Of a stretch of DNA of 59,436 bases, positions 46,618 to 52,722 are shown piece by piece. The position numbers and the translations under genes are program-made. Under the pieces are notes generated by a model that was given only the letters and a program-made list of their open reading frames with translations, was not told the origin of the DNA and did no database searches. This DNA comes from Bacteroidota bacterium (lineage in GTDB: Bacteria > Bacteroidota > Bacteroidia > JAFLBG01), in the NCBI GenBank assembly GCA_017303975.1, contig JAFLBG010000018.1, positions 1-59,436 on the forward strand, written 5' to 3'. Positions within the stretch are counted from its first letter, which is position 1, and every line of letters begins with the position of its first letter.

Positions 46618-47445
46618 ATGGATTATATAGAGTTTGATTTTACTGTAAGTCCATTAGAGCCGCATGCTGAAATTCTTACCACAAATTTGGCTGAATTAGG
46701 CTTTGATAGTTTTGTAGACACAGAAAAAGGCTTTCTTGCGTATATACCGCAAAACGTTTTTACAAAAGATGTAATAAAAAGTATTGGCGAATTTTATAAT
46801 TCGGAAGTTTCTGTAACCTATACCTATAGAGCTATTCAACAACAAAACTGGAATAAAATTTGGGAAGACAACTTTAAACCAATTGTTGTTGCAGATAAAT
46901 GTGCTGTTCGCGCTACTTTTCACGAGCCAATGAAATTTCCTTACGAAATTATTATTGACCCCAAAATGGCTTTTGGTACAGGACATCACGAAACTACATC
47001 CATGGTAATGGAAACAATGCTCGGCTTTGATTTTAATAACAAACTCGTTGCCGATATTGGTGCCGGAACAGGAATACTGAGTATTTTAGCTTCAAAACTT
47101 GGCGCTACAAGCATTGCAGCGGTAGATATTGACGAGTGGCCTTATGAAAGTATTTTAGAAAATTCTTTCCTCAATCAAATAGAAAACATTACTGCTTATA
47201 AAGGAACGGTAGACTTATTTAAAAATTTGCAGTTCGATATTGTATTGGCAAATATCAATAAAAATGTAATTCTACAAGATGTGCAAAAGTACTACGAAAT
47301 ACTTAATAAAGGCGGACTGCTTATACTGAGCGGATTTTACGAAGCTGATTGTCCGGATATTTTAGCGCAAACAACAAAATTAAATTTAAAAGAAATAAAA
47401 CGTTTGGTTAAGAATAACTGGACGTGCTTAACATTGCAATTTTAA
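46618..47445 (+). CDS. prmA: PrmA, ribosomal protein L11 methyltransferase
   Basis: 275 residues. The N-terminal substrate domain includes WNKIWEDNFKPIVV. The SAM-dependent domain has MAFGTGHHETTSMVME, VADIGAGTGILSILASKLGA, AVDIDEWPYESILEN and VLANINKNVIL (an NPP-like motif altered to NIN, typical of PrmA). It trimethylates L11. Coupled to tpiA; the next gene starts 5 bp downstream. Confidence 0.94.
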   Translation: MDYIEFDFTVSPLEPHAEILTTNLAELGFDSFVDTEKGFLAYIPQNVFTKDVIKSIGEFYNSEVSVTYTYRAIQQQNWNKIWEDNFKPIVVADKCAVRATFHEPMKFPYEIIIDPKMAFGTGHHETTSMVMETMLGFDFNNKLVADIGAGTGILSILASKLGATSIAAVDIDEWPYESILENSFLNQIENITAYKGTVDLFKNLQFDIVLANINKNVILQDVQKYYEILNKGGLLILSGFYEADCPDILAQTTKLNLKEIKRLVKNNWTCLTLQF

Positions 47446-47450
47446 GAAAA

Positions 47451-50400
47451 ATGAATTTGAAAAAAATTACTGTTTATATCTTGCTGAGTCTATTCTCGGG
47501 TGTTTTGATTGGGCAAACCCAAATTAAAAGTTTTACAGAAGAGCCTGTGAAATTTATGGACGAGCTAAAAGATTTTTTTCAGCAAAATAGTTCTGATAAG
47601 GGTGCTGCAGATGATTTTGCTGATGATTTTGAAAAATTTTGGAAGCTTAATAAACTTAATCCGGATCAAACAAAAGCTGTTTATACAACTTGTAATTTAA
47701 TGCTAAAAAAGCGCTTGCGTGCCATGGTAGAGTTTAAATCCTACTTAACATGTATTATGAATTTTGCAAACACAAATCAGTCGTTAGGAAATTTTAAAAC
47801 ATGGAGTTTTTGTGTGGAGAAAATTTTAAATGGAAAAGCTATAAAAAACTTTACCGACTACCTAACAATGAGCGAGTCGTTGTTTTATTCAAATTCATTT
47901 TATAAATCGCCTACGTACGAATGGGCGTCTAATAACTCTAATTACGTATTTGAATACGATAGTGTGCCCAAAGTTGTATTTCCTAGTTTAAATTTAAGTT
48001 GTTACAATTCTAAGTCAGATAGCACTGTTATTCAAAGTACGCAAGGAGTTTATTTTCCTTTCTCTCAAAAATTTATTGGTAAGGGAGGGCGGTTCGATTG
48101 GACTCGTGTTGGTTCCGACCCAAATGTTGTGTATGCTGAAATAAAAAAATATGAAATAATTTGCAAGGCAGGTGGCTTTACAATCGACTCTGTTACGTTT
48201 TATCATAAGCAATATTTTACAAAACCACTAAAAGGTGTTATCACAGAAAAAATGATTTCTGAAGATAAAAGTATTGCTTCTTATCCGCGTTTCGAGTCGT
48301 ACGACAAACGCCTTCAAATTCCCAATGTAGCATTAAATGTAGATTATGATGGAGGTTTTGCTATGCGTGGTTCAAAGTTTATGGGTGCGGGTAGTAATGC
48401 CGAGGATGCATATTTAAAATTCAAAAGAAACGATAAATATTTTATAGTAGCTGGCTCTAAGCAGTTTGCCATTACTAAAGAAAAATTGTATTCGGACAAC
48501 TCGAACGTACTTATCTTTTTGGAGAATGATACCATATCTCATCCTGGTTTAAGTTTAACATATTTGATACCCAAAAATCAACTATCGTTGATTCGAGTAG
48601 AAGATGGTTTAGGCAAGACTCCATTCTTCAATACGTTTCATGCGGTAGATATGTATTTTGAAGAGTTGTCATGGAAAACGGATGAGCCCACCATTAATTT
48701 AAAATCCTTAACAGGTAGTAGTACTATAGAAGCAGATTTCGAATCAAATAATTACTATAAGCAAAATCGCTATGACCGCCTGATGGGAATGGATGGATCG
48801 CATCCATTGCCAAGAATAAGAGACTATATTGTTAAAGCCAATGGAGGAAATAGAGAAGTAAATGTAATTGAGTTGGCAAAATACATGAAGATTACTGCTG
48901 ATAATTTGCGCCCAATGCTTGTAACGTTTGCAAGTAAAGGGTTTTTAACGTATTTCACTGCCGAAGATAGAATAATTGTAAAACAACGCTTGTTTAATTA
49001 TATCTCAAACAGAGCCGGGAAGACAGATTACGATGTTATTTCTTTTCACTCGGAAATAAAAGGAGTGCCAAATGCAAGCATTAATTTATTGAATTATGAT
49101 ATTACGTTGCGAGGTATTTCTTCTATACTACTTTCCGACTCTCAGCAAGTATTTATTTATCCCAAAGACAAGCAAATTATACTTAAAAAGAATAGAGATT
49201 TTCTGTTTGCAGGTATCATTAATGCGGGTAAATTCGAGTTTTGGGGCAAAGAATTTTCTTTTGAATACGATAAGTTTAAAATTAATTTAACTCAGGTGGA
49301 TTCGCTTAGAATTAAAGTGGAATCTTTCGAACCTAATGAAAGAGGCGAGTATCCATTGGTGAGAGTTAAAAGTATTGTCGAAAATATTACGGGTGATTTG
49401 CTAATTGATCATCCTAAAAATAAATCTGGAATCAAAGAATTTGTGCAATATCCTATTTTCAATAGTTTCAAGGAGTCATATGTTTTTTATGATAAAAAAT
49501 CTAAACCGGGTAAGTTGTACAATAGGAGTAATTTCTATTTTAAATTGGAGCCTTTTACAATTGATAGTTTAGATAATTTTTCTAACAAGGCACTCTCCTT
49601 TAAAGGAACATTTGCATCAGCAGGAATTTTTCCAAGTTTCGAGGAAAAACTTTCACTTCAATCTGATTACTCTTTGGGTTTTGTTAGAAATACACCACCC
49701 GATGGATTTGCATTGTACGAAGGGAAAGGTAAGTTCATGAACAAAATTAATTTAAGTAATAATGGCTTAAAAGGAGATGGAGATATAAAGTATGTTACGT
49801 CTACAACAAAATCAAACGATATCATTTTTTTCCCGGATTCTATGAATGCCCACGGTCAAAATTTTAATGTGGAAGAGCAAAAAGGAGGTAAAGTTGAATT
49901 TCCGCAAGTTAAAGGAGAAAATGTGTATGTGCATTGGATGCCTAAGAAAGATTATATGCACATTTCCAATAAAGAAAAACCGTTCACAACATATAATGGA
50001 CAAGCCGATTTTTATGGTAGATACACACTTACTCCGGATTTATTGTCAGGAAATGGAAAATCTACCTTCTCCGGAGCTGAACTGGAATCTAATAACATTG
50101 CATTCAAAAATATGACTTTTGATGCAGATACATCTGATTTCCGTCTTAAAGCAACACAGCAAACTACGGATAATGCATTGGCTTTCTCTACCAAAAATGT
50201 AAATGCACATATCGATTTTACTACTCGTTCGGGCGAGTTTAAGTCAAATGGAAAAGGTTCTGTTGTAAATTTCCCTCAAAACCAATATATGTGTTTCATG
50301 GATCAGTTTAAATGGTTTATGGATAAAAGCGATATAGAACTTGGTTCCAGTAAAAAAGTGGATGATAGAACAGATGTGGAGTTAACCGGTTCGGAGTTTA

Positions 50401-51950
50401 TTTCTACGCACCCAAAACAAGATTCTTTAAAGTTTGTAGCCCCATATGCAAAATACGATACCAAAAACTATATTATTACTGCTAAAGAAGTGAAGCATAT
50501 TAATGTAGCCGATGCTAGAGTATTTCCAGATAGTGGGGTGGTTGTGATAGAAAAAAATGCCGTAATGAAAACGTTGAAAAACGCAAGAATCATGGCTAAT
50601 ACTGTTACCAAGCATCATAATTTGTACGATTGTACTGTGAATATTTATGCTAAGAAGAGTTATTCTGGATCAGGCTATTATGATTATGTAGATGAGTTGA
50701 AGAAAAAACAATCTATTTATTTTAGTAATATTTCTGTAGATACAACCTATCAAACCTTTGCATCTACAGAAATTGGTGAGGATAAGGGATTTACGCTTAG
50801 TCCGCATTTTGATTACAAAGGAAAAGCATCCTTGTATGCTTCCAAACCAGCACTTTTATTTGCAGGAGCAGCACGAATTCATCAACCATGTGAGTCTGTA
50901 AAATCCAGTTGGTTGAAATTTTCAGATGAAATTAATCCGAATCAAATTTATATACCTGTATCTGCTACTCCAGAAGATTATGAGGGTAATAGTATCCATT
51001 CATCACTAATGTTGGCAAACGATTCAGCCCATGTGTATTCTGCATTCTTGTCTAAGGCAAGAACAAAAAGCGACCCGGAGGTATTTCCCTCTGAAGGTTT
51101 CTTAACATTTGATAAAACAACTCAGGAGTATCGAATATCTAATAAAGAAAAGCTTACCGAAATAAACATGCCTGGAAATTACTTAAGCATCAATACAAAA
51201 TCGTGTATTGTAAAAGCAGAAGGTAAATTAAACTGGGGCACAGATTACGGTCAAATTAAAGTAAACACGGTAGGTGTAGCCAAACAGTATTTAATTCCTG
51301 ACTCGGTTGTGTTTGAAGTAATGATGGGACTGAATTTCTTTTTTGACGATAATGCGTTGGGTAAGATGGCCGATGAAATTGGTATTTATTTTACGAATCT
51401 TCCGCTTACTGACTTCTCCAGGCCATTGTATGAAAAGGGATTGCGTGAGTTGGTAGGAAAAGCCGAGGCAGATAAATTAATATCTCAGGTAAATCTTTAC
51501 GGTTCATTCAAAAAATTCCCTGATGAATTAAAATATTCAATTTTGTTTAATGATTTAAAATTCAAATGGAATCCAACTACAAAATCATATTTATCGGTAG
51601 GTAAAATTGGAGTTGGAAGTATTCTTAAAACTCAGGTAAACAAATATGTTGATGGTTTTATAGAGATTGAAAGAAAGAAAAGTGGCGATAACTTAAATAT
51701 TTATTTGGAGTTAGATGGAACTAATTGGTATTATTTTAACTATTCAAGAGGTTTAATGCAAGCTATTTCATCGAACGAAAGTTTCAATAACATTATAAAG
51801 GAACTTAAATCGGATAAGCGTCAGATGAAAACGGAAAAAGGGCAAGCTGCCTATCAATTTAATTTATCTAACCTAAATAAGAAAACGCAGTTTATTAAGA
51901 GGGTAAATCAAGTTAATGCGGAGGAAGAGGAATACAAAGAACCTAAATAG
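47451..51950 (+). CDS. Very large secreted protein of unknown function (about 1,500 residues)
   Basis: 1,499 residues from ATG 47451, which gives a clean signal peptide (MNLKKITVYILLSLFSGVLIGQ); an open stretch back to 47424 overlaps prmA. No lipobox, no T9SS tail and no transmembrane barrel end are evident. Most of the length is repetitive beta-rich sequence with many charged residues (e.g. LNVDYDGGFAMRGSKFMGAG, AKYDTKNYIITAKEVKHINV). The latter region, with ADARVFPDSGVVVIEKNAVMK, recalls OstA/LptA-type beta-jellyroll domains, but this is only an impression. Possibly a periplasmic or envelope-spanning structural protein. Ends 26 bp before a strong bidirectional terminator. Confidence 0.6.
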   Translation: MNLKKITVYILLSLFSGVLIGQTQIKSFTEEPVKFMDELKDFFQQNSSDKGAADDFADDFEKFWKLNKLNPDQTKAVYTTCNLMLKKRLRAMVEFKSYLTCIMNFANTNQSLGNFKTWSFCVEKILNGKAIKNFTDYLTMSESLFYSNSFYKSPTYEWASNNSNYVFEYDSVPKVVFPSLNLSCYNSKSDSTVIQSTQGVYFPFSQKFIGKGGRFDWTRVGSDPNVVYAEIKKYEIICKAGGFTIDSVTFYHKQYFTKPLKGVITEKMISEDKSIASYPRFESYDKRLQIPNVALNVDYDGGFAMRGSKFMGAGSNAEDAYLKFKRNDKYFIVAGSKQFAITKEKLYSDNSNVLIFLENDTISHPGLSLTYLIPKNQLSLIRVEDGLGKTPFFNTFHAVDMYFEELSWKTDEPTINLKSLTGSSTIEADFESNNYYKQNRYDRLMGMDGSHPLPRIRDYIVKANGGNREVNVIELAKYMKITADNLRPMLVTFASKGFLTYFTAEDRIIVKQRLFNYISNRAGKTDYDVISFHSEIKGVPNASINLLNYDITLRGISSILLSDSQQVFIYPKDKQIILKKNRDFLFAGIINAGKFEFWGKEFSFEYDKFKINLTQVDSLRIKVESFEPNERGEYPLVRVKSIVENITGDLLIDHPKNKSGIKEFVQYPIFNSFKESYVFYDKKSKPGKLYNRSNFYFKLEPFTIDSLDNFSNKALSFKGTFASAGIFPSFEEKLSLQSDYSLGFVRNTPPDGFALYEGKGKFMNKINLSNNGLKGDGDIKYVTSTTKSNDIIFFPDSMNAHGQNFNVEEQKGGKVEFPQVKGENVYVHWMPKKDYMHISNKEKPFTTYNGQADFYGRYTLTPDLLSGNGKSTFSGAELESNNIAFKNMTFDADTSDFRLKATQQTTDNALAFSTKNVNAHIDFTTRSGEFKSNGKGSVVNFPQNQYMCFMDQFKWFMDKSDIELGSSKKVDDRTDVELTGSEFISTHPKQDSLKFVAPYAKYDTKNYIITAKEVKHINVADARVFPDSGVVVIEKNAVMKTLKNARIMANTVTKHHNLYDCTVNIYAKKSYSGSGYYDYVDELKKKQSIYFSNISVDTTYQTFASTEIGEDKGFTLSPHFDYKGKASLYASKPALLFAGAARIHQPCESVKSSWLKFSDEINPNQIYIPVSATPEDYEGNSIHSSLMLANDSAHVYSAFLSKARTKSDPEVFPSEGFLTFDKTTQEYRISNKEKLTEINMPGNYLSINTKSCIVKAEGKLNWGTDYGQIKVNTVGVAKQYLIPDSVVFEVMMGLNFFFDDNALGKMADEIGIYFTNLPLTDFSRPLYEKGLRELVGKAEADKLISQVNLYGSFKKFPDELKYSILFNDLKFKWNPTTKSYLSVGKIGVGSILKTQVNKYVDGFIEIERKKSGDNLNIYLELDGTNWYYFNYSRGLMQAISSNESFNNIIKELKSDKRQMKTEKGQAAYQFNLSNLNKKTQFIKRVNQVNAEEEEYKEPK

Positions 51951-51976: not shown

Positions 51977-52005
51977 AAAAAGCAGGACTAATTGTCCTGC
52001 TTTTT
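51977..52005. terminator. Bidirectional Rho-independent terminator
   Basis: AAAAAGCAGGAC (51977-51988) and GTCCTGCTTTTT (51994-52005) are perfect reverse complements around TAATT. T-tracts are present in both directions, so it can end the large plus-strand gene (stop 51950) and the minus-strand peptide gene at 52066. Confidence 0.92.
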
Positions 52006-52065
52006 AGTTATAATTCGGCTGTGATTAGGATAAATCCCCCCAGAATACCCCAACCACAACCGAGC

Positions 52066-52170
52066 TTATGAGATTACAGTTAATATATTGTAAAACACTG
52101 TTACTAACACTAAAAATACACTTACATCTTTTGATGTTTTGTTGTCTATCTTCTTTGCAATTGTTTTCAT
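52066..52170 (-). CDS. Small hydrophobic peptide gene 1 (34 residues), LytTR-box controlled
   Basis: ATG at 52168-52170 is preceded 4 bp upstream by a very strong Shine-Dalgarno (AAAGGAGGG), unusual in this AT-rich genome. The peptide starts MKTIAKKIDNKTSKD (basic, polar) and ends in a hydrophobic stretch (VSVFLVLVTVFYNILTVIS). It shares the MKT start, an NKxTS-like segment and a hydrophobic tail with the 45-residue peptide at 52473. The promoter-proximal sequence (TAATATTG, then TTAAAAGAA) also matches that of the sister gene. A paired direct-repeat element lies at 52246-52275. Function unknown; a secreted signal, bacteriocin-like or membrane-active peptide is possible. Confidence 0.6.
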   Translation of the reverse strand: MKTIAKKIDNKTSKDVSVFLVLVTVFYNILTVIS

Positions 52171-52245
52171 GGTGCCCTCCTTTTTTAGAATTTGTTTCTT
52201 TTAACAATATTACCATCAATTTGTGGTGATTACAATCAGCGTTTT

Positions 52246-52275
52246 ACGAACGGTAGGTTTTGTTTAATAAACGGT
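52246..52275 (-). promoter_or_regulatory. Direct-repeat regulatory element 1 (9-12-9 spacing)
   Basis: On the minus strand: ACCGTTTAT, 12 bp, ACCGTTCGT. The two 9-mers are direct repeats 21 bp centre to centre (two helical turns), the geometry of LytTR-family response-regulator sites such as AgrA, ComE and PlnC/D boxes. Located 75 bp upstream of the peptide-1 ATG and 34 bp from a TAATATTG -7-like element. Identical to element 2 at 25 of 30 positions. Confidence 0.65.
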
Positions 52276-52383
52276 AAAAATGGTCTGTTTCAGAAAATTT
52301 TCATCGATATAGGGCTCGTCAGAATTGTATGCTCCTTGTAAAATTAGAGCTTTAAGATCCCCCGTTTTATCAGCCATTTAAAA

Positions 52384-52417
52384 ACAGAAACGCTCAGCTA
52401 TTGCCGAGCGTTTCTGT
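52384..52417 (-). terminator. Rho-independent terminator of peptide gene 2
   Basis: ACAGAAACGCTC (52384-52395) and GAGCGTTTCTGT (52406-52417) pair perfectly over a 10-nt loop. On the minus strand it is followed by TTTTTAAA, and it lies 55 bp past the stop of the 45-residue peptide gene. Confidence 0.88.
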
Positions 52418-52472
52418 CATTCTGAACCTTAAAAACAAAACTACATCCCCCAAAGAGTTAAGTCTTTAAATT

Positions 52473-52610
52473 TCACGAATTGAAGTATAAAATTGCGTTT
52501 ATTACATGATAAAAAATAAAGCCAGCTGTTCCAAGAATTAATAGTGCATTAATAATATCAGCTGCATTAATTCTACTTGTTTCTTTCTTGTTTATTGTTG
52601 CCGTTTTCAT
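52473..52610 (-). CDS. Small hydrophobic peptide gene 2 (45 residues), LytTR-box controlled
   Basis: ATG at 52608-52610 is preceded by AAAGGAGAACATC, a strong Shine-Dalgarno. The peptide begins MKTATINKKETSRINAADI and continues with a hydrophobic segment (NALLILGTAGFIFYHVINAI) that could span a membrane. Own promoter-like TATCTTTA at about 50 bp upstream, direct-repeat element at 52693-52722, and own terminator at 52384-52417 make it a complete minimal transcription unit. Similar design to peptide gene 1. No family recognised. Confidence 0.62.
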   Translation of the reverse strand: MKTATINKKETSRINAADIINALLILGTAGFIFYHVINAILYFNS

Positions 52611-52692
52611 GATGTTCTCCTTTCTTTTTAGTTTGTTTTGCGTTCTTTTAATAAAGATACATTCGCTTTTTTCGCAAAGCTATTGCGGTTGT

Positions 52693-52722
52693 ACAAACGG
52701 TAAGTTTTGTTAAATGAATGGT
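52693..52722 (-). promoter_or_regulatory. Direct-repeat regulatory element 2 (9-12-9 spacing)
   Basis: On the minus strand: ACCATTCAT, 12 bp (TTAACAAAACTT), ACCGTTTGT. Same layout as element 1, including a near-identical spacer. It ends 82 bp upstream of the peptide-2 ATG and 33 bp from TATCTTTA, against 75 and 34 for element 1. Conserved spacing to both repeat and promoter is strong evidence of a shared activator site. Confidence 0.65.

Follow-up and report, generated by a model that had tools for sequence, protein, structure and literature searches.

In the window, by which we mean the whole 59,436-nucleotide stretch of contig JAFLBG010000018.1 (Bacteroidota bacterium, class Bacteroidia; GenBank assembly GCA_017303975.1), two very short open reading frames (ORFs) of 34 and 45 codons lie close together on the minus strand. 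Each is preceded by a strong Shine-Dalgarno (SD) sequence, a -7-like promoter box, and, farther upstream, a pair of 9-bp direct repeats separated by 12 bp; these elements, their placement, and the hairpins that follow the ORFs are read directly from the DNA (Table 1). An initial sequence-only reading had reported both tiny genes with their SDs, a match of 25 of 30 bases between the two repeat elements, and element-to-ATG distances of 75 bp (34-aa gene) and 82 bp (45-aa gene), all of which were confirmed. It had also placed the -7-like boxes 34 and 33 bp from their elements; the near equidistance held, but the values needed correction, as both boxes start exactly 33 bp past the end of the element. 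The 12-base spacers of the two elements are likewise similar (TAAACAAAACCT and TTAACAAAACTT), and both ORFs open with the same ATGAAAAC start, so that both peptides begin with MKT. AGGAG or GGAGG ahead of a start is rare in this region, being found at 1 of the 43 window ORFs of at least 150 aa. Where ATGAAAA follows a strong SD elsewhere in the genome, it opens a long gene or a chance ORF, and these sites were set aside. Because each ORF has its own strong hairpin on the 3' side, each resembles a one-gene transcription unit, and each gene looks like a self-contained unit consisting of element, promoter, SD, ORF, and terminator.

Table 1. Positions in the window of the two short ORFs and of the features that accompany them
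Feature	Position	Strand	Remark
34-aa ORF, MKTIAKKIDNKTSKDVSVFLVLVTVFYNILTVIS	52066..52170	minus	Basic N-terminus and 19-residue hydrophobic C-terminal segment
SD of 34-aa ORF, AGGAGG (extended AAGGAGG)	52176..52181	minus	
-7-like box of 34-aa gene, TAATATTG	52205..52212	minus	5/6 fixed bases of TAnnTTTG
TTGT in promoter of 34-aa gene	52232-52235		10 bp after element, 19 bp before -7-like box
Element of 34-aa gene, ACCGTTTAT-N12-ACCGTTCGT	52246..52275	minus	Exact pattern match
Probable terminator region after 34-aa ORF, 18-bp GU-rich hairpin	52015..52063	minus	RNA fold
Bidirectional terminator common to 34-aa unit and upstream plus-strand gene	51977-52005		Adjoins the 52015..52063 hairpin
45-aa ORF, MKTATINKKETSRINAADIINALLILGTAGFIFYHVINAILYFNS	52473..52610	minus	Hydrophobic helix (predicted, residues 16-44) after a basic N-terminus
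SD of 45-aa ORF, AAGGAG	52617..52622	minus	
-7-like box of 45-aa gene, TATCTTTA	52652..52659	minus	5/6 fixed bases of TAnnTTTG
Element of 45-aa gene, ACCATTCAT-N12-ACCGTTTGT	52693..52722	minus	Exact pattern match
Probable terminator after 45-aa ORF, 16-bp hairpin, then T run	52383..52418	minus	RNA fold

The flanking gene (window 47424-51950) encodes a 1508-aa protein with no Pfam match, which is conserved at 17 loci in a variety of Bacteroidota MAGs. At most of these loci it immediately follows a prmA-like gene and one for triosephosphate isomerase. In these 17 relatives (up to 53% identical), neither the element nor the peptides are found beside the 1508-aa gene and other genes follow it, and the idea of a conserved peptide locus was dropped. 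Elsewhere in the window, a TPP riboswitch (Rfam RF00059; 24308-24398, minus strand) stands before a set of thiamine genes that includes a thiC-like one, an expected arrangement.

Both predicted peptides carry a short basic N-terminus, with a charge of +3 (34 aa) or +2 (45 aa) before the hydrophobic part, followed by about 19 or more hydrophobic residues that run nearly to the C-terminus (hydropathy over 19 residues of 2.3 and 2.0, respectively). This is the layout of a single-span small membrane protein, in which a helix of at least about 19 residues follows a short basic N-terminus. An AlphaFold2 single-sequence model of the 45-aa peptide gave one helix at residues 16-44 with a mean pLDDT of 85, a value expected of any such peptide. 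Neither peptide had a match in Pfam, NCBIfam, or PHROGs, and for the 45-aa peptide there was no relative in the phage or plasmid collections and no second copy in the genome. The two peptides resemble each other only marginally (P 0.02), and the similarity of their 5' regions is significant mainly through the SD region, being weak outside it (P 0.09). Given such predicted features, the likeliest product of each putative ORF appears to be a peptide that spans the membrane once and acts in the cell that makes it.

By inspection, no signal peptide, lipobox, signal-peptidase site, or double-glycine leader is present in either peptide, no transporter, modifying, or immunity gene adjoins the peptide genes, and the hydrophobic part sits at the extreme C-terminus. 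These observations speak against the idea that LytTR controls secreted pheromones or bacteriocins here, as it does in the Gram-positive Agr, Com, and Pln systems, an identity that we consider unlikely even though streptococcal bacteriocin genes are driven from LytTR sites (PMC6193735), the peptides do combine a basic N-terminus with a hydrophobic tail, and another LytTR gene in the genome adjoins pinensin-type lanthipeptide genes. Secretion of the putative peptides is possible but would be the less likely outcome.

Small membrane toxins are of like size, with a basic N-terminus and a single hydrophobic helix. It seems quite unlikely, all the same, that the two peptides are membrane-acting self-toxins of a type I-like kind or cell-death effectors: their strong SDs come without a translational block, and an activator site at each of two genes suits induction rather than silencing, although streptococcal LytTR systems are known to control a suicide pathway (PMC6193735). 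No antitoxin was found, and a scan for antisense RNA promoters, made with a consensus that does not cover Bacteroidota promoters, returned nothing above shuffled sequences. We assign a similarly low probability to the proposal that LytTR induces small regulatory RNAs from these units, or that they are remnants of promoter duplication, with the ORFs being incidental in either case. The regionally rare SDs, the common start, and the same basic-hydrophobic layout in both ORFs argue for coding function, and the likeness of the 5' regions on which this proposal would draw, together with the strong hairpins near the promoters and the lack of protein homologues, is weak outside the SD region, as described above.

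For the element itself, whole-genome scans were pattern searches. Without mismatch, ACCRTTYRT-N12-ACCRTTYRT occurs at two sites in the 3.43-Mb genome, both of them in the window, and the reversed control pattern has 0 occurrences. Class-wide, the bare perfect pattern was found in 27 of 395 genomes versus about 20 for the control and is not clearly enriched; the signal thus rests on the placement of the element. Many of the class-wide pattern matches fell inside genes or in simple repeats (as in G249) and were discarded. The composite of element, 55-85 nt, AGGAG, and ATG is present twice in this genome and six times in the 394 other Bacteroidia genomes, one per genome and about as often as the control. 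Copies of the element with one or two mismatches lie upstream of an exbB-exbD-exbD-tonB operon (contig C2), a lipoprotein-like gene (C11), and a secreted-protein gene (C4). At the operon (L045:57-3396, minus strand), a one-mismatch element stands 151 bp upstream of exbB with a 5/6 match to the -7 box at 32 bp, and at the lipoprotein-like gene TATATTTG follows 33 bp after a weak element. For two-mismatch copies, the reversed control gives similar numbers in the genome, and the resemblance of these weaker sites to targets in relatives, which include envelope and secreted proteins, is suggestive only.

The sequence-only reading had proposed that a LytTR response regulator controls a family of short exported or membrane-active peptides. 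Its prediction of further elements before short ORFs fared poorly in part, as none were found beyond the two here and none of those in the 394 other genomes was convincing, and a regulon of many short ORFs was rejected, the weaker sites preceding ordinary genes or falling within genes. An exported family in particular is not supported: there are only two such genes in the genome, with no export or maturation signature and no homologues, and the other possible targets of the element (the exbB-exbD-tonB operon, the lipoprotein, and type IX secretion system [T9SS] proteins) are ordinary envelope genes. The regulatory half of the proposal stands better, since the repeats behave like a LytTR activator site in their placement before LytTR genes, including orthologues of the C31 regulator described below, and in their spacing to the -7 box.

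The genome encodes five LytTR proteins, all on contigs other than that of the window. One of them, a 269-aa REC-LytTR regulator on contig C31 (17533-18339; here, the C31 regulator), has relatives in 252 of 395 genomes (E <= 1e-30), not all of which are orthologues; the comparison genomes belong, at closest, to the same class (Bacteroidia). In G197 and G291, REC-LytTR genes with confirmed domains have the element 51-60 bp ahead of them, and the element or a near copy is found upstream of C31-like genes in G018 (63% identity, the closest), G061, G378, G291, and G349. In one genus (g114 of family f33; L122-L133), near-identical 30-bp elements with a conserved spacer (ACCGTTCATTGGTCAAAATCGACCGTTAGT) occur in several copies per genome, preceding stand-alone LytTR genes and large RHS-like secreted proteins, with a perfect TACGTTTG 42 bp downstream and often a third half-site between. 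Per-gene shuffling P values combined over 36 upstream regions gave a Fisher P of 9e-11, which overstates the case, many of the rows being related; as an internal control, the neighboring tandem LytTR paralogues at these loci had no element (p 0.2-1.0). In G349 (C5:4500-24400; L210:1-19901), the element precedes five gene starts with a -7 box 31-32 bp later, in a cluster that encodes Reg_prop/Y_Y_Y histidine kinases, a C31-type REC-LytTR, and T9SS-sorted proteins (a subtilase and SBBP propellers). The cluster is a candidate regulon in which a LytTR protein would control T9SS cargo.

The distance from the element to the -7 box, which in Bacteroidota is TAnnTTTG, provides a second line of evidence. 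Across 24 related elements (window included, g114 multi-copy set left out), -7 matches cluster 31-33 bp after the element (permutation P 0.001), a preference first spotted by eye in part of the same data, such that this P value is supportive rather than independent. An independent case for the geometry of the window, found later, comes from contig C5 of the same genome (about 134944-136542; L042:4945-6543), where a stand-alone 124-aa LytTR gene lies just upstream of a pinensin-family lanthipeptide precursor gene, one of two such precursors beside it (NCBIfam NF038180, E 1.2e-9 and 1.2e-6). Between the LytTR gene and the precursor gene, a perfect repeat with a 21-bp period, TACGAATAAT-N11-TACGAATAAT, ends 32 bp before TATACTTG, a spacing read off the sequence; this repeat differs in sequence from the window elements, whereas its geometry is alike, and LytTR control of a Bacteroidota lanthipeptide at this locus appears likely. 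The window elements thus have the geometry of LytTR-type activator sites (direct repeats of about 9 bp, 11-13 bp apart, upstream of a promoter) and a promoter spacing common to other LytTR-linked copies (33 bp for both here, 31-33 bp in relatives, and 32 bp at the pinensin locus). The 33-bp spacing also fits a general LytTR activator arrangement, with the middle of the repeat pair roughly 55-60 bp ahead of the start site. The LytTR type of the element and its spacing to the -7 box are thus supported along both lines, and the window repeats are probably LytTR-type sites. Least probable among the alternatives is a neutral duplication or a site for another type of regulator with an accidental LytTR resemblance, which the presence of only two perfect copies in the genome and the near-control class-wide counts would suit but which recurrent placement before LytTR genes and a preferred -7 distance in independent lineages oppose.

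As for the regulator that would act on these LytTR-type sites, we infer that the C31 protein may be the cognate one for both window elements because of the behavior of its relatives, the [VI]ARR/[VI]SRR end of the DNA-binding domain that it has in common with them, and the different repeat at the C5 LytTR gene. The C31 gene of this genome, unlike its relatives, has no element upstream, which counts against this assignment, as does the presence of four other LytTR proteins in the genome. The stand-alone LytTR on contig C5 is a less likely regulator of the peptides, given that its neighboring lanthipeptide gene has a different repeat. L070 was also considered as a response regulator; its first residues are suggestive, but the longer translation (312 aa) does not bear this out, and it was not used as evidence.

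Taken together, these observations suggest that two orphan membrane peptides are probably expressed under a LytTR-type activator site. In our model, each unit would begin with a LytTR activator site and a weak Bacteroidota promoter, continue with an ORF of 34 or 45 codons behind a strong ribosome site, and close with a terminator. The response regulator, of LytTR type and most likely the C31 REC-LytTR, would dimerize on the 9-12-9 repeat along one face of the DNA and bring RNA polymerase to the -7 box that starts 33 bp farther on, such that arrival of a signal would produce a burst of both peptides. The peptides would be single-span inner-membrane proteins with the N-terminus inside and would most likely act on an envelope component inside the producing cell. 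That the regulator activates and does not repress, that the ORFs are translated, and what the peptides do are likewise inferred. We hold the model as a whole, from two one-gene units activated by a LytTR regulator (most likely C31) to single-span inner-membrane products, with moderate confidence. More tentatively, a REC-LytTR system whose targets in other members of the class are its own gene and T9SS-secreted proteins might here target most strongly two orphan membrane peptides that feed back on, or modulate, the envelope or the sensor; such a small-peptide feedback circuit is not known to have been described in the phylum, and we offer the idea as a speculation.

The arrangement of element, gap, and TAnnTTTG with its 31-33 bp rule provides a usable search key. 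It ties the C31-type regulator lineage, associated with Reg_prop kinases in one relative, to the T9SS proteins of relatives and possibly to the two tiny peptides here, and it connects pinensin-type lanthipeptides with a second LytTR encoded in this genome. Provided that the peptides are real, they would offer a tractable example of signal-controlled small membrane proteins in the phylum, within an unstudied and testable small-peptide circuit of a little-known Bacteroidota bacterium.

Several known systems invite comparison. The sequence-only reading knew of no described system of this form in the phylum, a view that must be revised, as LytTR-like repeats with nearly the same promoter spacing were proposed ahead of Bacteroides operons in 2018 (PMC6193735, Table 3); that prediction is all that we found in the literature searched, with no paper there testing a LytTR binding site in Bacteroidota. 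Published LytTR repeats are of the 9-12-9, ACC type and lie about 10 bp upstream of the -35 (PMC6193735). The S. mutans LytTR regulatory system (LRS) and the LRS-like Bacteroides operons resemble the window units in having ACC-type 9-12-9 repeats about 10 bp ahead of the promoter, and the Bacteroides repeats end 34 bp before a TATCTTTG -7 box, versus 33 bp here (PMC6193735). An LRS, however, is an operon in which a REC-less LytTR regulator is co-transcribed with a larger membrane inhibitor, whereas here no regulator gene adjoins the units, the protein that fits best carries a REC domain, the stand-alone LytTR on contig C5 sits with lanthipeptide genes, and the targets are peptides of 34 and 45 aa.

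The Agr, Com, and Pln systems likewise combine a LytTR regulator, repeats of the 9-12-9 type, and small peptide genes (general knowledge and PMC6193735), but their processing transporter, leader, and sensor gene have no counterpart adjoining the peptides here; by inspection and from the adjacent genes, neither the double-glycine leader or AgrB-type processing nor the dedicated transporter or protease of such systems or of class II bacteriocins was found. Also comparable are LytS/LytTR two-component systems such as BtsS/BtsR and YpdA/YpdB of E. coli, each a histidine kinase with a REC-LytTR regulator that has few targets and conserved DNA-binding motifs in the target promoters, although those targets are transporters (PMC5552118) and those here would be small peptides. 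The Reg_prop/Y_Y_Y kinase and LytTR cluster of G349 has the same element type, the same -7 spacing, and a homologous regulator, and it differs in that its targets are the gene of the regulator and large proteins secreted by the T9SS.
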